NCBI RefSeq assembly: GCF_023015985.1
Contig: NZ_JALKAO010000005.1
Coordinates: 62,001-126,000, forward strand
Origin: Marivita sp. S6314
GTDB lineage: Bacteria; Pseudomonadota; Alphaproteobacteria; Rhodobacterales; Rhodobacteraceae
Direction of reading: 5' to 3'
Length of the DNA stretch: 64,000 nucleotides
The number at the start of each line of letters is the position of its first letter. The first letter of the stretch is position 1. The notes beneath the pieces were generated by a model. The model saw only the letters and a program-made list of their open reading frames with translations, did not search any database and was not told where the DNA came from. The position numbers and the translations under genes are program-made. Below, piece after piece: positions 18,253 to 28,222 of the stretch.

Positions 18253-19158
18253 TCAACGACCAGCACTCAGAACCATGCACAGCGCATCCAGGTCTTCCAA
18301 TGTGTCATACGTCACAGTGACAGACCCCGATTCCTTCCCCGCGTGATGGTTAATCGACACCTTCATACCCAGCGCTGCCGATAGATCGCCCTCAAGCGCC
18401 TTGGTATCCGCATCCTTGGCAGACGGCGCTGCTTTCGGCGCTGGCTTGGCGGTTTCTGGCTTGCCTTGGTTCTGTGCTGTCTTGACCAGCTTCTCGGTTT
18501 CACGGACAGACAATCCGCGACGCACGATATCCCCAGCCAGCAATACGGGATCCGGTGCCGTCACAAGCGCCCGCGCATGTCCTGCCGACAGTTTTCCATC
18601 TTGGACCGCGACTTTCACCACGTCTGGCAACGTCAGCAATCGCAGAAGGTTTGCGATATGGCTTCGGCTTTTCCCCAAGGCTTGCGCAAGCTTCTCTTGC
18701 GTATGCCCGAAGCGCGTCATCAACTGGTCGTACCCTGCCGCCTCTTCAATGGCATTCAGGTCTGCACGCTGGATGTTCTCGATGATCGCGATTTCCAGAA
18801 CGTCTTCATCTGAAAACTCCCGAACAACCACCGGCACCTCATGGACGCCCGCCTTTTGTGCCGCGCGCCATCGGCGTTCACCGGCAACGATTTCGTACCG
18901 TTCGCCCTGATCGCCCTTCTTGCGAACGATCAGCGGTTGAATCACACCTTTGCTGCGAATGGAATTTGCCAATTCATCCAGCGCATCCGCATCGAACTGA
19001 CGACGCGGCTGATCCGGGTTCGGCTCAAGCTGATCCACTGGCAAGCTGCGCGCAGAACGCGGGGGTGCCGCCGGGTTCTCCTGCCCTGGCTCAATATCCG
19101 CCATCAATGCGGACAGACCGCGCCCCAAACCGCGTCGGGTCTCTTTTTTGTCTGCCAT
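18253..19158 (-). CDS. parB: Chromosome partitioning protein ParB
   Basis: A protein of 301 residues. Blocks in order: VDQLEPNPDQPRRQFD, the CTP-binding GERRWRAAQKAG, the arginine-box ENIQRADLNAIEEA and the HTH region (GKSRSHIANLLRLL), then a Lys/Ala-rich linker and a C-terminal dimerisation domain. ParB loads on parS as a CTP clamp. Three perfect parS sites lie 1.1-3.3 kb upstream inside rsmG and mnmG. The gene follows parA by 9 bp in the same operon. Confidence 0.97.
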   Translation of the reverse strand: MADKKETRRGLGRGLSALMADIEPGQENPAAPPRSARSLPVDQLEPNPDQPRRQFDADALDELANSIRSKGVIQPLIVRKKGDQGERYEIVAGERRWRAAQKAGVHEVPVVVREFSDEDVLEIAIIENIQRADLNAIEEAAGYDQLMTRFGHTQEKLAQALGKSRSHIANLLRLLTLPDVVKVAVQDGKLSAGHARALVTAPDPVLLAGDIVRRGLSVRETEKLVKTAQNQGKPETAKPAPKAAPSAKDADTKALEGDLSAALGMKVSINHHAGKESGSVTVTYDTLEDLDALCMVLSAGR

Positions 19159-19167
19159 TTGCCTACC

Positions 19168-19980
19168 TCACGCTGCTGTCATTGTTTCTGACTTCCCAAG
19201 AAATTCGCGTGCCAACGCCCGATACGCGGCCGCGCCCTTGGAGCTTGGATCGTATTCGAGAACCGGCATCGCGTAAGATGGCGCTTCGCTCACACGGACA
19301 TTCCTTGGGATCACGGTCTCAAAGACAAGATCCCCAAGATTGTCCCGCGCGTCCATCTCAACCTGTTGAGACAGGTTGTTGCGGGCATCATACATCGTGA
19401 GAACAACGCCCTCGATGCGAAGGTTTGGATTGGCGGTTTGCCGCACTTCCCGAATTGTCAGCATTAACTGGCTTAGCCCTTCCAATGCAAAGAATTCGCT
19501 TTGAAGCGGGACCAGAACGGAGTGCGCCGCGACCATCGCGTTCACCGTCAAAAGGTTGAGAGACGGCGGACAGTCAATCAGTACGAAATCGAACGCGAAC
19601 TGGTCCATATCGGTCTGCCGCAGTGCGTCATGCAGAAGGAAACTCCGCTTCTCATTGGCGATGAGCTCAATATCCGCAGAGCTCAGATCAGTCGTCGACG
19701 GAACAAGACTCAGATTGGCCTGACGCGTCTTGCAAATGATGTCCTGTAGCGGGAAATCGTCGAGCAACAGGTCATAGGTTGTGGCGCGGCGATCTTCGGG
19801 CATCACCCCTAACCCGGTCGAGGCATTCCCCTGTGGATCGAGGTCGACAACCAGCACTTTCTGACCGATTTCGGCAAGCGCTGATGCAAAGTTGATGGCT
19901 GTCGTGGTTTTCCCCACACCACCTTTCTGGTTCGCAATAGCTATTATTTTCGGGCCAATCGGGCGTGTCGGATCATGCAC
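19168..19980 (-). CDS. parA: Chromosome partitioning ATPase ParA
   Basis: A protein of 270 residues. The deviant Walker A motif KGGVGKTT is at residues 19-26 and DLDPQGN follows. ParA forms the ATP-dependent DNA-bound gradient that moves ParB-parS complexes. The frame is open to 20013 inside rsmG; the GTG at 19980, with GGAG about 9 nt upstream, is the likely start and overlaps the rsmG stop by 8 bp. It is the fourth gene of an mnmE-mnmG-rsmG-parA-parB run. Confidence 0.96.
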   Translation of the reverse strand: MHDPTRPIGPKIIAIANQKGGVGKTTTAINFASALAEIGQKVLVVDLDPQGNASTGLGVMPEDRRATTYDLLLDDFPLQDIICKTRQANLSLVPSTTDLSSADIELIANEKRSFLLHDALRQTDMDQFAFDFVLIDCPPSLNLLTVNAMVAAHSVLVPLQSEFFALEGLSQLMLTIREVRQTANPNLRIEGVVLTMYDARNNLSQQVEMDARDNLGDLVFETVIPRNVRVSEAPSYAMPVLEYDPSSKGAAAYRALAREFLGKSETMTAA

Positions 19981-20566
19981 GGGACAAGTCTCCAATTTCC
20001 AATATGGCAGCATCGGGGTTCGTGATACTTGTATGGGCTTTGTAGGTGAATCGCCACAGTTTTTGCGCGTCTTCTACCTCTTGGCGCCACGTCATGCCTT
20101 TGGGAAACACGCATGTTCCGCCGTCGCGCAAATGGAGCGACGCATAGTCCAATAGCTTGTCCAAAGACGCCAGCGCTCGGGCGCTTACAACATCAGCGGT
20201 CAAAGGTGGTATGTCCTCAATGCGCTTGGCAAGGACGGTGATCGGCGTTTGTGTTTCACGTGAAACAGTACGCAGGAACGTCGCCTTTCTCTGATCGCTT
20301 TCAACGAGCGTCATCCGAAAGTCTGGCTGCTGTTCAGCACGAACAATCGCAATGACAGCTCCGGGAAACCCGCCGCCGGCGCCCAGATCAGTCCAGGTTT
20401 CGCTATCAGCCCCCACCAATTCCGAGATCTGTAGCGAGTCCTCGAAATGGCGGCGTGCAGCGTCCTTCAAAGAGTCCTGCGATACCAGATTTATCTTTGG
20501 TGACCATTTCCGGAGAAGTTCAAGGTAAAGATCCAGCTTTTGCTGTGTTTCACGTGAAACATTCAT
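19973..20566 (-). CDS. rsmG: 16S rRNA (guanine-527 N7) methyltransferase RsmG (GidB), carrying two parS sites
   Basis: A protein of 197 residues. It methylates G527 of 16S rRNA with SAM; the SAM-binding loop [10 protein letters not shown] is at residues 60-69. Two parS palindromes are part of the coding sequence: one spans codons 2-7 (NVSRET) and one codons 100-105 (TVSRET). Both are read in the same frame and give the pentapeptide VSRET twice. The start overlaps the mnmG stop (ATGA). It is otherwise a normal family member. Confidence 0.95.
20252..20267. other. parS site inside rsmG (codons 100-105)
   Basis: A perfect 16-bp palindrome TGTTTCACGTGAAACA, identical to the canonical ParB-binding sequence. 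It is read in rsmG as TVSRET. Confidence 0.95.
20546..20561. other. parS site at rsmG codons 2-7
   Basis: A perfect TGTTTCACGTGAAACA palindrome starting five bases inside rsmG and read as NVSRET. It lies next to the mnmG stop. Confidence 0.95.
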
Positions 20567-22446
20567 CCCGCGATTTTCCGTTGCGACGCGTTGGCTTTCA
20601 GCTTTGACAGCAAAAGCAACAACGCGGAGGGAGTCATTCCATCAATCCGCGACGCCTGCGCAATGTTAGCCGGGCGATTGGATTTCAGCTTTATCTTAAG
20701 CTCATTCGACAACCCTTCGATATCATCAAAACCGAAATCATGCGGTATGATCTGTGCCTCATCTCGCCGCAGAGCCTCAATATCTTTCTTCTGACGGTCG
20801 AGGTAATTCGCGTAGAGCGCATCCTTGGACAGCTGTTCCTTGGTTTCTCCGTCGATTTCGGAAAGGTCTGGAGAAATTGCCTCCAGACCATCCCAAGTCA
20901 CAGACTCAATCGCAAGCGCCTCAAAACCACTACGGCGTGCCCCATCGCGGGATACATTCACCCCAGCATCAATAAGCTGCTTCGACGTTACAGTCAGAGA
21001 TGTCAGCGCGGCCTTACCTGCGTTCAGCTTTTTCATCTTTGCTTCGAAAACAGATACACGATGCGCACTCACGCAACCGACTTCTATCGCCATAGGCGTC
21101 AAACGCTGGTCTGCATTGTCCGCACGAAGAGACAACCGATACTCGGCACGCGATGTGAACATTCGGTAGGGCTCCGAAACGCCACGAGACGTCAGATCAT
21201 CGATCATGACACCAATGTAGCTATTCGCACGGCTGAACGTAACCGGCTCTTGCTGCTTCGCCCGACGCGCCGCATTTATACCAGCAACCAACCCCTGCGC
21301 GGCCGCTTCTTCATAGCCAGTTGTGCCGTTGATCTGACCTGCCAGATACAATCCCGCGCACTTCTTAAGCGACAAATCCAAGTTCAATGCACGGGGATCA
21401 ACGTAGTCGTATTCAATCGCATAACCCGGTTGCAAAATCTCGGCGCGCTCCAACCCCTTGATTGATCGCACGTATTGCAACTGCACCTCTTCAGGCAAAG
21501 AGGTCGAAATGCCGTTTGGATAGATCGTATGATCGTCAAGCCCTTCAGGTTCCAGGAAAATCTGGTGCGACGTCTTTTCGGCAAAACGAACGATCTTGTC
21601 TTCGATAGACGGGCAATATCGCGGTCCTACGCCCTCAATATGACCACCATACATCGCAGATCGACCGAGGTTTTCGCGGATGATCTCATGGGTTGACGCA
21701 TTTGTATGCGTAATCGCACAGGACACCTGACGCGCGGTTGGCGCGTCAGAGAGGAACGAAAACATCGTCGGTTGTTCATCGCCGGGCTGCTCGTCAAGAT
21801 CACTCCAATCAATCGTGCGCCCATCAAGGCGCGGAGGCGTACCCGTTTTTAAGCGGCCAAGAGGTAGGTCAAGTTCATCGAGACGGCGCGCCAGATCTGT
21901 CGACGGCTTTTCCCCCATACGACCACCCGAGATCTGGCGGTCGCCTATATGGATGATCCCACGCAGAAATGTCCCGGTGGTCAGAGTGACCGACGGGGCT
22001 GTGATGGCCTTATCGCCGTTGATCTGCACGCCATGAACGGAGTCTTCGTCCATCAAGAGATCTGTGACTTCCCCTTCGAGTATCGAAAGGTTTGGCTGCG
22101 CTTGCGTGGCGGACAGCATTTCGTTTTGGTAAATCTTGCGATCCGCCTGGGCGCGTGGGCCTTGAACCGCAGGGCCCTTGCGGCGATTGAGAAGACGAAA
22201 TTGGATGCCAGCCTTATCGGCCACGCGTCCCATCACCCCGTCGAACGCATCAATTTCCCGGACAAGATGGCCTTTGCCAAGCCCGCCAATCGCTGGATTG
22301 CAGGACATAACGCCGATGCCAGACAGTGTCAGCGTAATCAAAGCCGTCCTCGCACCGAGCCGGGCCGCCGCATGTGCGGCCTCGCAACCTGCATGTCCGC
22401 CACCCACGACGATGACATCGAAATCAAATTGTTTCACGTGAAACAC
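20563..22446 (-). CDS. mnmG: tRNA uridine 5-carboxymethylaminomethyl modification enzyme MnmG (GidA)
   Basis: A protein of 627 residues. FAD-dependent, it works with MnmE to modify U34 of certain tRNAs. The Rossmann motif [10 protein letters not shown] is at residues 15-24 and [13 protein letters not shown] follows. The start is GTG at 22446 with GAGGA immediately upstream. Its first six codons lie in a parS palindrome (22430-22445), read as MFHVKQ, a different frame from the parS copies in rsmG. It is coupled to mnmE (3-bp gap) and rsmG (4-bp overlap). Confidence 0.97.
22430..22445. other. parS site over the mnmG start
   Basis: A perfect TGTTTCACGTGAAACA palindrome that supplies the last two bases of the GTG start codon and the next four codons of mnmG (FHVK). 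Confidence 0.95.
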
Positions 22447-23754: not shown

Positions 23755-25023
23755 TTACGAATTCATGGAGTCGAAGAATTCCGAATTTGTCTTGGTCTGT
23801 TTCAGTTTCCCGATCAGGAATTCAATGGCATCTGTTGTGCCCATCGGGTTCAGGATCCGACGCAGAACAAATGTCTTTTGCAGATCGATCTTGTTGACCA
23901 ACAGGTCTTCTTTGCGGGTCCCGGATTTGAGGATATCCATCGCCGGGAAGACGCGTTTGTCCGCCACTTTACGATCCAGCACGATTTCCGAGTTACCCGT
24001 GCCTTTGAATTCTTCAAAGATCACTTCGTCCATCCGGCTTCCGGTGTCGATCAGAGCGGTTGCAATGATTGTGAGCGATCCACCTTCTTCGATATTCCGC
24101 GCGGCACCAAAGAAACGCTTGGGGCGCTGCAAGGCGTTTGCATCTACACCACCGGTCAGAACCTTACCCGAGGACGGCACCACGGTGTTAAACGCTCTAC
24201 CAAGTCTTGTGATGGAATCCAGAAGGATCACAACATCTCGTTTATGCTCCACAAGACGCTTGGCTTTTTCGATGACCATTTCAGACACGGCAACGTGACG
24301 GGTGGCGGGTTCGTCAAAGGTGGACGACACAACTTCGCCCTTCACCGAGCGCTGCATGTCGGTCACTTCTTCGGGGCGTTCATCAATCAGCAGCACGATC
24401 AGGTAACATTCCGGATGGTTGCGTTCGATTGAATGCGCGATGTTCTGGAGAAGAACCGTTTTACCCGTGCGCGGCGGCGCAACAATCAGGGATCGCTGGC
24501 CTTTCCCGATGGGCGCAACAAGGTCGATGATCCGCGCTGACCGATCCTTGATCGTCGGATCTTCAATTTCCATGTTCAACCGCTCGTCCGGGTAGAGCGG
24601 TGTCAGGTTGTCAAACGCGATCTTGTGGCGGGCGCGTTCCGGTTCCTGGAAATTGATCTGGCTGCAGTTCATCAAGGCAAAGTAGCGCTCGTTGTCCTCG
24701 GGCGCTTTGATTTCACCATCGATGGTGTCTCCGGTTCGCAAAGAGAACTTCCGGATCATTTCCGGAGAGACATAGATGTCGTCAGGGCCCGGAAGGTAGT
24801 TTGCCTCGGGAGAACGCAAAAACCCGAACCCGTCCTGAAGCACTTCGAGAACCCCGTCGCCGAAGATTTCCCAGCCTTCGTCCGCGCGTTCGCGTAGGAT
24901 CTGGAACATGATCTCGCCTTTACGCATGGTTGATGCGTTTTCGATCTCAAGCTCTTCAGCCATCGCCAAAAGGTCTTTGGGGCTTTTTGCCTTCAGATCG
25001 GCAAGATTCAGTTTTTCGGTCAT
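23755..25023 (-). CDS. rho: Transcription termination factor Rho
   Basis: A protein of 422 residues, the usual length. The N-terminal SAP-like and cold-shock RNA-binding domains include [19 protein letters not shown], the Walker A loop PPRTGKT lies at 183-189 and [13 protein letters not shown] follows. Rho is a hexameric RNA-dependent ATPase that ends transcription. The gene lies directly beside the predicted origin and is read away from it, so its promoter must lie within the origin region. mnmE follows 21 bp downstream. Confidence 0.97.
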
Positions 25024-25200
25024 AACGTATCCCGGATCGCGTGGTGTCGCGATCTACTCTTGTTTATCTTTGGAAAGTCTCATCCAGAACAGGACTGTGC
25101 TGCTCTTAGACGAGCAGGACGAGCCTGTCAAACCGAGCCCTATCTTAAATAAATAAAGAAAAAAGTAAGGATTTTGTTCTTAGTAGTCCCGACCCTGATC

Positions 25201-25209
25201 TGTGGATTA
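25201..25209 (-). other. DnaA-box-like nonamer
   Basis: TGTGGATTA, complement TAATCCACA, one base from the TTATCCACA consensus, at the edge of the A/T-rich stretch. Confidence 0.6.
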
Positions 25210-25330
25210 ATGACTTGCGCACAGGTTGTTCACTGACATCCGGACATGGATAAGATTGTGAACAAGATTTTTGTAGAGCCGTAACGTCGTTCTACAGGTT
25301 GATATCATTCTATTTTCGTCGGGAAACCCA

Positions 25331-25339
25331 TGTGGATAA
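25331..25339 (-). other. Perfect DnaA box
   Basis: TGTGGATAA, complement TTATCCACA, the exact consensus nonamer. Confidence 0.85.
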
Positions 25340-25411
25340 ACTTGGACATTTTTCTCTGCTAATCAGTTGTCCGACATCCAGAGTTATCCGATCCACAGCG
25401 GGCAAAACGCG

Positions 25412-25426
25412 TTAACAGATGCTTAA
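25412..25426. promoter_or_regulatory. CtrA-type box TTAA-N7-TTAA
   Basis: TTAACAGATGCTTAA has exact TTAA half-sites with seven bases between. A GANTC CcrM methylation site (25428-25432) follows two bases later. It may regulate origin firing or the maf promoter. Confidence 0.6.
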
Positions 25427-25512
25427 CGACTCGGTGAGAGTCTTAACGGCTTGCTGCCAGAGCGGCTTTTCCGCAAAACACTCATGTAAAGAAACAAGGG
25501 TTGTCCGCGGAG

Positions 25513-25521
25513 TTGTCCACA
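25513..25521 (+). other. DnaA-box-like nonamer at the maf start
   Basis: TTGTCCACA is one base from consensus and its last base is the A of the maf ATG. Confidence 0.5.
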
Positions 25522-26120
25522 TGAATCTCGATTTGGTTCTGGCGTCCGGGTCTGACATCCGCGCCACGATGCTGCGGAATGCCGGGTTACGATTCGATGT
25601 TCAGGTCGCGCTAATCGACGAAGAGACGATCCGGCGATCCTTGGAGGCGGAAGACGCCAGCCCGCGTGACATTGCTGACACCTTGGCCGAAATGAAAGCG
25701 CGCAAGATTTCAGATAAGATGCCGGGCGCGCTTGTTCTGGGGTGTGATCAGGTGTTGTCCGTCGACAAACAGGTCCTGGGCAAACCAGAGACCATCGACG
25801 ACGCCAGATCCCAGTTACAGCTTTTGCGAAACCGGTCGCACACCTTGCTGTCAGCAGCGGTTCTTTATGAAGACGGCGAACCGAAATGGCGGCATGTCGG
25901 GGTGGTGCGGTTGCGCATGCGCGATGTGTCGGATGCCTATCTTGAGGATTACCTTACGCGCAACTGGGACAGCGTGAAACATTCGGTCGGCGCTTACAAA
26001 CTGGAAGAAGAAGGTGCGCGGTTGTTCACCCAGGTTCAGGGAGACTATTTCACCGTGCTGGGTCTTCCGTTACTTGAGTTATTGAACCATCTCACATTGA
26101 TCGGACGGATTGACGGATGA
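25521..26120 (+). CDS. maf: Maf-family nucleotide pyrophosphatase
   Basis: A protein of 199 residues. The N-terminal [11 protein letters not shown] is a variant of the Maf ASxSPRR motif, and LGCDQVL and KPET give the conserved acidic and metal-binding positions. The family hydrolyses modified or non-canonical nucleotides. The frame is open to 25419, but the ATG 25521 begins the conserved strand [11 protein letters not shown] and has GGAG at 25509. Its start codon overlaps a DnaA-like nonamer. It is coupled to aroE by ATGA. Confidence 0.92.
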
Positions 26121-26950
26121 GTGACAGTAAAATTCCCCTGGCTGGTGTTATTGGCCACCCCATCGCCCACTCAAAAAGCCCCAATGTGCATGGATACTGG
26201 TTGCGGAAATACGGTTTGCGCGGTCACTACATTCCGATCGACATCGCGCCGGAAAAGATCAAGGATCTGCTGCCACGATTGGTCGATCTGGGGTTCGTCG
26301 GGGCAAATGTCACGATTCCGCACAAGGAAACCGTGATGGACATCGCAGACCTGATCACCGATCGCGCCACGTTGATCGGCGCTGCAAACACGCTGATCTT
26401 TCGCAAGGATGGGCGGATTCACGCGGACAACACGGACGGGTACGGGTTTATCGAAAACATTCGCCAATCTGAGCCGGACTGGAATCCAAAGAGCGGGCCG
26501 GCAGCTGTGTTTGGTGCCGGTGGCGCGGCGCGCGCGGTGATTGCGTCTTTGCTGGATGTCGGGGTGCCCCAGATCCTTTTGACCAACCGAACCCGCATTC
26601 GGGCCGAAAAGCTGCGTGATGATTTTGGTCATCGGGTTCAGGTGGTGGAATGGGTACAGGCCGGGAATGTGCTGGAAGAGGCGGACTTGGTTGTGAACAC
26701 CACATCGCTTGGCATGACCGGTAAAACCGAAATGCGGGTTCCACTGGACGGGCTGCGGCCGGGGATCATTGTGAATGACCTTGTGTACACGCCGTTGCGC
26801 ACCCGACTTCTGGCCGAGGCCGAGCAACGCGGGTGCCGTGTTGTCGATGGGTTGGGCATGCTGCTTCATCAGGCGGTCCCGGGTTTCGAACGCTGGTTCG
26901 GAAAACGCCCTGTTGTTGATGACAACGTTCGAGCTGCGGTGTTGCGGTGA
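26117..26950 (+). CDS. aroE: Shikimate dehydrogenase
   Basis: A protein of 277 residues. It reduces 3-dehydroshikimate to shikimate with NADPH in aromatic amino-acid synthesis. The substrate site [12 protein letters not shown] is near residues 13-24, NVTIPHKE has the catalytic Lys, and GAGGAARAV is the nucleotide loop at about 133-141. The maf-aroE-coaE-dnaQ order is the conserved origin-proximal run of alphaproteobacteria. It overlaps maf (ATGA) and coaE (GTGA). Confidence 0.95.
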
Positions 26951-27540
26951 CGTTCAAACTTGGTCTCACCGGCTCTATCGGGATGGGAAAGTCGACAACG
27001 GCACAGATGTTTGCCGATGCGGGTTGCGCAGTTTGGGATGCGGATGCGGCAGTGCATCGTTTGTATTCCGTGGGGGGTGCAGCCGTTCCCGAAATCAACG
27101 CGGCGTTTCCGTCCGCTGTGATCGACGGACAGGTCGATCGCGCACGGCTGCGAGAGATTATTTCGGACACGCCAGAGGCGCTAAGGCAAATCGAGGCTAT
27201 CGTGCATCCTCTGGTGCGGGATGACCGGATAAGCTTTGTGAAAAGCGCTTCGTCTGACATCGTCGTTTGCGACATACCTTTGCTTTTCGAAACGGGCGGT
27301 GAGTCCGAGATGGATGCGGTGATATGTGTCTCTGTTTCACCGGAACTTCAGGAAAAACGTGTTTTGGAGCGAGGCACCATGACACGCGATCAGTTCCTGG
27401 CCATCCGTGCGAAACAGATGCCGAACGACGAAAAAATACAGCGATCTGATTTTGTGATCACAACCGACACTCTTGAAGATACCCGTCGTCAGGTTCACGA
27501 TGTGCTTGAGCAGATCAGGAAAGATATCGGCCATGCGTGA
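26947..27540 (+). CDS. coaE: Dephospho-CoA kinase
   Basis: A protein of 197 residues. It phosphorylates dephospho-CoA at the 3'-hydroxyl of ribose, the last step of CoA synthesis. The P-loop GSIGMGKST is at residues 9-17 and DADAAVHRLY follows. The start is GTG at 26947, overlapping the aroE stop. The dnaQ start lies inside its last codons. Confidence 0.94.
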   Translation: MTFKLGLTGSIGMGKSTTAQMFADAGCAVWDADAAVHRLYSVGGAAVPEINAAFPSAVIDGQVDRARLREIISDTPEALRQIEAIVHPLVRDDRISFVKSASSDIVVCDIPLLFETGGESEMDAVICVSVSPELQEKRVLERGTMTRDQFLAIRAKQMPNDEKIQRSDFVITTDTLEDTRRQVHDVLEQIRKDIGHA

Positions 27541-28222
27541 AATCGTTCTGGATACGGAAACCACCGGGTTTGAACCGGAACAAGGTGACCGGATTGTCGA
27601 AATCGGTGCGGTTGAGCTTTATAACCACGTTCCCACCGGGCGGACCTATCATCAATACATCAACCCTGAGCGATCCATGCCGCAAGAGGCGTTCGAGGTG
27701 CATGGGTTGGGTGACGATTTCCTGCGTGACAAACCAGTTTTTGCGGACATCGCGCAGGCCTTCGTGGATTTCATCGGGGATGCCACGCTGGTCATTCATA
27801 ACGCCGCGTTTGATATGAAATTCCTGAACGCAGAATTGGGCTGGTTGAAACGCCCCGCGATTCCGATGAGCCAGTCTTTGGATACGCTGGCGATTGCCCG
27901 ACGGAAGTTTCCGGGATCGCCTGCGTCGCTTGATGCGCTGTGCCGACGTTTCGGGATCGACAACTCATCCCGCACATTGCACGGCGCGTTGCTTGATTCC
28001 GAGATTTTGGCGGAAGTGTATCTTGAGCTGATTGGCGGCAAGCAGCCGGATTTCGGGTTGAACGTGTCCGAAGCAAAATCGGGGACAAGCGGTAGTCAGC
28101 AGGAATGGCGCCCTGCCCCGCGCCCGGCCCCTTTGCCGTCGCGCTTGTCAGACAGCGAAAAGGCGGCACATGCCGCCTTTGTCGAAACCTTGGGGGACGC
28201 TGCGCTCTGGAAGCGCTTTTGA
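27533..28222 (+). CDS. dnaQ: DNA polymerase III epsilon subunit (3'-5' proofreading exonuclease)
   Basis: A protein of 229 residues. The DEDDh exonuclease motifs are ExoI LDTETTGFEP (Asp7, Glu9), ExoII HNAAFDMKFL and ExoIII HGALLDSEILAEVY with the catalytic His and Asp. The frame is open to 27473, but the family start MREIVLDTETTG is the ATG 27533, overlapping the coaE end by 8 bp. The last ~60 bp hold a strong hairpin that probably serves the convergent secB transcript. Confidence 0.95.
   Translation: MREIVLDTETTGFEPEQGDRIVEIGAVELYNHVPTGRTYHQYINPERSMPQEAFEVHGLGDDFLRDKPVFADIAQAFVDFIGDATLVIHNAAFDMKFLNAELGWLKRPAIPMSQSLDTLAIARRKFPGSPASLDALCRRFGIDNSSRTLHGALLDSEILAEVYLELIGGKQPDFGLNVSEAKSGTSGSQQEWRPAPRPAPLPSRLSDSEKAAHAAFVETLGDAALWKRF
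28159..28180 (-). terminator. Hairpin inside the 3' end of dnaQ, probable secB terminator
   Basis: AAAGGCGGCA at 28159-28168 pairs perfectly with TGCCGCCTTT at 28171-28180 across a 2-nt gap. Read on the minus strand the stem is followed by TTTT, lies about 46 bp past the secB stop and therefore fits an intrinsic terminator. It lies within dnaQ codons, so it is also protein-coding. Confidence 0.55.

Follow-up and report, generated by a model that had tools for sequence, protein, structure and literature searches.

The window analysed here, a 64-kb stretch of the Marivita sp. S6314 genome on contig C35 (240,931 bp) of an assembly in 39 contigs, contains a 497-bp gap (positions 25024–25520) between rho on the left (23755–25023, − strand; NCBIfam TIGR00767, 690 bits) and maf on the right (25521–26120, + strand; above the cut-off of NCBIfam subfamily TIGR00172). 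The initial annotation had described this gap as gene-free, A/T-rich and bordered by divergent genes, and all three points were borne out: the only open reading frame of at least 100 aa entering the gap is maf itself, lengthened in frame to 25419 on its upstream side, A+T content is 0.543 compared with 0.42 for the whole window, and the two flanking genes are transcribed away from each other and from the proposed origin. On the right, maf is the first gene of a maf-aroE-coaE-dnaQ run, in which aroE, coaE and dnaQ (26117–28222, + strand) were assigned from NCBIfam matches. On the left, a parS/parAB cluster does lie a few kilobases off, as had been stated, with three exact parS sites on the + strand (20252–20267, 20546–20561 and 22430–22445) at 2.6–5 kb from the gap, and parA (19168–20013, − strand; ParA-type NCBIfam match) and parB (18253–19158, − strand; ParB/Spo0J-type NCBIfam match) at 5–7 kb. 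Elsewhere in the window, ~31–36 kb from the origin, ORFs between 56687 and 61577 resemble, by eye, bacteriochlorophyll genes and presumably encode a geranylgeranyl reductase, a PucC-like transporter, a bacteriochlorophyll synthase and a PpsR-like regulator; a strong AT skew at 58–60 kb falls within this region.

The left ~117 bp of the gap (25024–25140) form a block with little variation across 14 Marivita-type loci (the window, 11 named Marivita and two unclassified records of like sequence) and probably represent the rho leader and promoter region rather than part of an origin. A candidate rho promoter is present there on the − strand (TTGACA at 25131–25126, 17 nt, and TAAGAG at 25108–25103); a simple consensus promoter scan did not list this candidate. 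As the block reads as a rho promoter, the origin core was placed at 25141–25525, where an A/T-rich element, box I, box II, a split element and box III follow one another in that order.

The 40 bp of highest A/T content in the entire window start at 25141–25146 and contain 7 G/C, and the element that holds them (25141–25185) adjoins a DnaA box, as expected of a DNA unwinding element, the role predicted for it here. This neighbouring box I (TAATCCACA, 25201–25209, − strand, −320 from maf) has one mismatch to the DnaA-box consensus, TTATCCACA, while box II (25331–25339, − strand, −190 from maf) is a perfect TTATCCACA and box III (TTGTCCACA, 25513–25521, + strand) has one mismatch and is not strictly intergenic, since its last base is also the first (A) of maf. 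The single perfect box listed in the initial annotation is thus present, as are two of its three one-mismatch boxes (25201 and 25513), but the third, TTGTTCACA at 25257–25265 (− strand), is two mismatches from TTATCCACA and one from the looser TTWTNCACA, and is not conserved among the Marivita-type loci. The core of box I, TGTGGATT, is invariant in all 14 of these loci, box II varies among them, and a split element, TTATCC-N4-CACA (25384–25397, + strand), occurs in 13 of the 14. Box III extended over the maf start codon (TTGTCCACATG, 25513–25523) and box II (CATGTGGATAA, 25329–25339) also form an 11-nt inverted repeat that is 91% complementary.

Boxes with at most one mismatch show no overall enrichment in the window (8 versus 7.14 expected), and three of these eight fall within the gap, which makes up 0.8% of the window, where they span 321 bp and form a DnaA-box cluster of the kind that marks oriC. 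The gap holds the only triple (three boxes of one mismatch or none inside 500 bp) in C35 and a further 360,000 bp sampled from four contigs.

Matches to maf (E 1e-20) were identified in 281 of 296 family genomes, with the window maf nearest to Marivita records (78–86% identity in the named ones). The loci compared were the best 30 of the 281 (own genome included) and the best 80 of 121 named records, 110 in total, and rho and maf co-occurred in 109 of them; the window gap, too, lies next to maf, as expected of the maf-type oriC of Rhodobacteraceae. One locus (L128) was left out because only 174 bp lay upstream of its maf match, and removal of near-duplicates from the remaining 109 gave a first set of 102. 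Across this set, the 410 bp upstream of maf carried a mean of 2.42 boxes with at most one mismatch per locus (0.12 in shuffles), and at least one such box was present in 99 of the 102 loci (11.65 loci in shuffles), compared with 2 of 102 in maf coding sequence as a control. The boxes recur at three positions, on the − strand near −340 to −320 and near −200 to −180 and on the + strand at approximately −8, the last reaching the A with which maf begins; 88 such boxes fell in the bin from −20 to 0 alone across the 102 loci, a count of boxes and not of loci.

A hold-out set of 60 further loci was taken from the same maf list (the next 42 in order and 18 from lower down, closed chromosomes included), with upstream sequence playing no part in the selection, and became 58 after two near-duplicates of first-set loci were dropped. 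Box III was found in 51 of the 58, a − strand box at −360 to −300 (box I) in 31 and a box at −215 to −170 (box II) in 24; in 44, the stretch of highest A/T content started at −420 to −340 from maf, matching the window. In the first set of 102 loci, the split element TTATCC with CACA, N4 and N5 spacings counted together, occurred in 17 loci, a shorter IHF pattern in 18 (16.5 in shuffles, thus no excess) and a longer IHF pattern in 13, above the shuffles (3.35, maximum 7), while GANTC was below its shuffles (1.18 versus 1.75 per locus).

The sequence beside box I was also compared with the BUS rule, by which at least three NAN trinucleotides lie no more than 16 bp from a DnaA box (PMC8287927). 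Near box I the window has GTAGTC and its relatives GATGATGAT, and NAN trinucleotide runs in the window were 6 and 2 on the two strands. Among the 88 of 102 loci that have a box I, 58 passed a DnaA-trio rule on the box strand (19.1 in shuffles, maximum 25) and 17 on the opposite strand (43.5 in shuffles), with the published meaning of the strand ambiguous in this setting. A BUS/DnaA-trio reading, attractive at first, is therefore not claimed, as the counts on the two strands conflict.

Replication origins are further expected to coincide with a switch in GC skew. The cumulative-skew minimum that the initial annotation had proposed as a check was found on C35, at window position 24288, inside rho and 0.7 kb from the gap, and within the window GC skew changes sign at 25 kb, becoming positive; because the assembly is in 39 contigs, of which C35 is one, this is a partial test of the chromosome, and sequence beyond C35 was covered as samples (18 stretches of 20 kb from four contigs, plus C11:1–100000). 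Skew was positive in all seven sampled stretches of C32 and C34 and mixed in C11 and C22, signs that cannot be ordered because the contigs are neither placed nor oriented. For comparison, four single-contig chromosomes of the family were each sampled in ten stretches of 20 kb, and the number agreeing with a sign change at maf was 10, 9, 6 and 6, a mixed outcome that is clear in two of the four. A further abrupt skew switch occurs on C35 at ~185–210 kb (near C35:190 kb), from −0.079 to +0.157 in 5-kb windows, and no DnaA cluster was found there. The dnaA gene lies at C35:219652–220137, 132 kb from the gap.

The left side of the locus differs among relatives. The distance from rho to maf was 497–566 bp in 28 of the 109 loci and 908–1079 bp in the other 81, and a HemJ-type gene on the − strand between rho and the origin was detected in all 81 long-gap loci and in none of the 28 short-gap loci (tblastn with the protein of one family locus, L004, as reference, at least 57% identity; a 50-residue piece of this protein matches UPF0093, PF03653). 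Loci without the gene at this place include Marivita, Octadecabacter and Puniceibacterium records, a distribution that possibly reflects repeated loss or relocation beside the origin. The single PF03653 match of the Marivita sp. S6314 genome is on contig C36. The Marivita origin thus has rho as its direct left neighbour, whereas a HemJ-type gene intervenes in most of the fetched family loci. Neither a HemJ-type gene intervening between rho and the origin nor a DnaA box on the maf start codon was found described in the literature searched, in which subscription journals were thinly covered.

In E. coli oriC, box R1 is followed by a short G/C-richer spacer and an A/T-rich unwinding element. The Marivita origin shares this order of DnaA box, G/C-richer spacer and A/T-rich element, but has fewer strong boxes and different neighbours. 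A maf-aroE-coaE-dnaQ run presumably lies beside the Caulobacter origin as well. Cori of Caulobacter crescentus is placed between hemE and COG1806 and carries five CtrA sites (PMC1914354), so that the comparison drawn in the initial annotation, with hemE on the left, omitted the COG1806 gene that borders Cori. Like Cori, the window locus is a gap in which weak DnaA boxes accompany an A/T-rich part, and parS is no more than 8 kb away in both (PMC4468827, PMC1914354). In contrast to Cori, it lacks the hemE–COG1806 flanks of the Caulobacter/Rickettsia oriC type: the single match to the hemE family (PF01208) is on contig C39, COG1806 (PF03618) was not found in the Marivita sp. S6314 genome but was found in Caulobacter as a control, and only one, unconserved, CtrA-type box is present.

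A position of oriC beside maf in the Rhodobacteraceae is already published: a 2016 genome paper describes it, from DoriC, as conserved in the family, and in the DoriC/Ori-Finder predictions, for example that for Ketogulonicigenium vulgare Hbe602, maf is the right neighbour, as it is here (PMC4793288). In addition, oriC has been assigned in 101 Rhodobacteraceae with Ori-Finder, using skew and parAB as guides (PMC6699656, 2019). Together with the skew minimum on C35 and the recurring boxes and A/T-rich element, the published position upholds the proposal of the initial annotation that the rho–maf gap is a probable chromosomal origin, and 25141–25525, as an approximate core, is very probably oriC of the main chromosome of a marine, Marivita-type member of the Rhodobacteraceae. 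As its position and layout are common to relatives, it is an ordinary origin, situated where the family leads one to expect it. At such an origin, DnaA would load on a small number of boxes, most of them weak (box I at 25201, box II at 25331, box III at 25513 and perhaps the split element at 25384), and a filament of ATP-DnaA would extend leftwards from box I across the G/C-richer spacer and melt the adjoining A/T-rich element (25141–25185); the order of box I, spacer and A/T-rich part suggests melting towards rho. Helicase would be loaded at the melted element and initiation would be bidirectional, with one fork departing via rho-mnmE-mnmG-parAB and the other via maf-aroE-coaE-dnaQ, while ParB on the parS sites 2.6–5 kb away may aid separation of the sister origins.

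Several observations count against this assignment, namely the second skew switch on C35, the two closed relatives with agreement in 6 of 10 stretches, the distance of 132 kb to dnaA and a second triple of DnaA boxes on contig C11. An alternative is that the gap is merely a regulatory region for the divergent rho and maf genes under the control of DnaA as a transcription factor, with the true origin at another place such as the C11 triple. The divergence of the two genes, the resemblance of 25024–25140 to a conserved rho promoter and the overlap of box III with the maf start codon, a possible place for a repressor, would all suit such a regulatory region. The C11 triple (C11:47973–48056), which lies outside C35 and the 360-kb sample, is likewise situated in a gap between divergent genes and consists of TTATCCCCA followed by two perfect boxes on the opposite strand, 22 and 75 bp on (spacings 22 and 53 bp). 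It is conserved in the genus and precedes an unrelated gene: a similar stretch was found in all 12 same-genus genomes searched and in none of 8 from other families, and among 12 loci (own and 11 others) the first and last boxes were present in 12 and the middle box in 9, with constant spacing. Of 100 family genomes, 4, one of them the own genome, carried the exact pattern of its outer boxes (control 0), and the triple stands before a gene whose product consists of repeated TGDAVEAFTSGSAP-like units and had no Pfam match, and before a DUF6902 gene.

However, cumulative skew climbs through the C11 triple without a minimum in C11:1–100000, and its most A/T-rich 40 bp contain 12 G/C versus 7 in the rho–maf gap, so that it was rejected as a rival origin; its role may be that of a promoter regulated by DnaA, or of a site for titrating or recharging DnaA. 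The genome holds 24 perfect DnaA boxes in all, and those considered and rejected as rival origins also include a pair at C34:323829 and C34:324300, which are separated by 471 bp and lie in ORF-covered sequence, and a single box before an ORF at C36:40648. The change of skew, the A/T-rich element, the parS sites, the three clustered boxes and conservation across the family, along with the published location of oriC beside maf (PMC4793288), jointly argue against a purely regulatory role for the rho–maf gap and make it highly improbable that the origin lies elsewhere.

A separate question, compatible with the assignment of oriC to the rho–maf gap, is whether the origin is gated by CtrA as in Caulobacter, with CtrA at 25412 excluding DnaA. 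The CtrA-type box that had been reported here is present as an exact TTAA-N7-TTAA (TTAACAGATGCTTAA, 25412–25426, −109 from maf) and is the only exact match in the window (0.14 expected), but it is absent from all 13 other aligned Marivita-type loci. Since it is missing in these loci and overlaps an imperfect 20-bp tandem repeat, the box may be an accident of the Marivita sp. S6314 genome, and CtrA as a controller in this organism is therefore unsupported. A CtrA-gated origin would be expected to carry several conserved TTAA-N7-TTAA sites, compared with the one unconserved site seen here, and genome-wide the pattern occurs 26 times versus 36 for a reversed control pattern.

Across the family, TTAA-N7-TTAA is nevertheless mildly over-represented at origins, N7 being the commonest TTAA spacing among N3–N12 in both the first set (10 of 102 loci, versus 1–5 for other spacings) and the hold-out (7 of 58, versus 0–3). 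A CtrA-type box is located at −36 to −40 in Sulfitobacter-, Roseovarius- and Roseobacter-type and two further records, and one falls within −50 to −24 in 12 of 98 anchored loci (5 exact and 7 with one mismatch; shuffles of the 98 loci gave no more than 1 exact, or 4 when one mismatch was allowed), counts to be read as leads because related loci are not independent. This position was weakly repeated in the hold-out (5 of 58 loci, 1 exact and 4 with one mismatch), where shuffles also reached 1 and 4. Published accounts point both ways: CtrA sites were predicted in Wolbachia and Rickettsia origins by an earlier study (PMC1914354) and, according to a 2021 perspective, an influence of CtrA on replication has been shown in some Rhodobacterales, yet the same perspective describes growth as unharmed by ctrA loss in the Rhodobacterales studied (PMC8116508), and a review restricts CtrA sites in origins to Caulobacters, with R. 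prowazekii as a possible exception (PMC4468827). Taken together with the lack of conservation of the 25412 box, this makes CtrA gating of the Marivita origin unlikely.

More speculatively, assembly of the orisome through the box on the maf start may switch the maf-aroE-coaE-dnaQ run, and CtrA boxes may have been gained repeatedly at family origins at varying distances from maf, a combined proposal that is conceivable but doubtful. If true, an operon with the replicative proofreader would be coupled to the origin, and the family would offer a natural series of rewiring in replication control. The assignment of oriC to the core at 25141–25525 would itself fix the start of the chromosome for the Marivita-type genome, and the map of boxes and A/T-rich element over 160 family loci narrows the candidate region. 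The start-codon box, the turnover of CtrA-type boxes and the C11 triple are the parts most worthy of experiment, and the first of these, together with the patchy CtrA-type boxes, provides concrete sites at which differences in replication control among alphaproteobacterial groups may be addressed.
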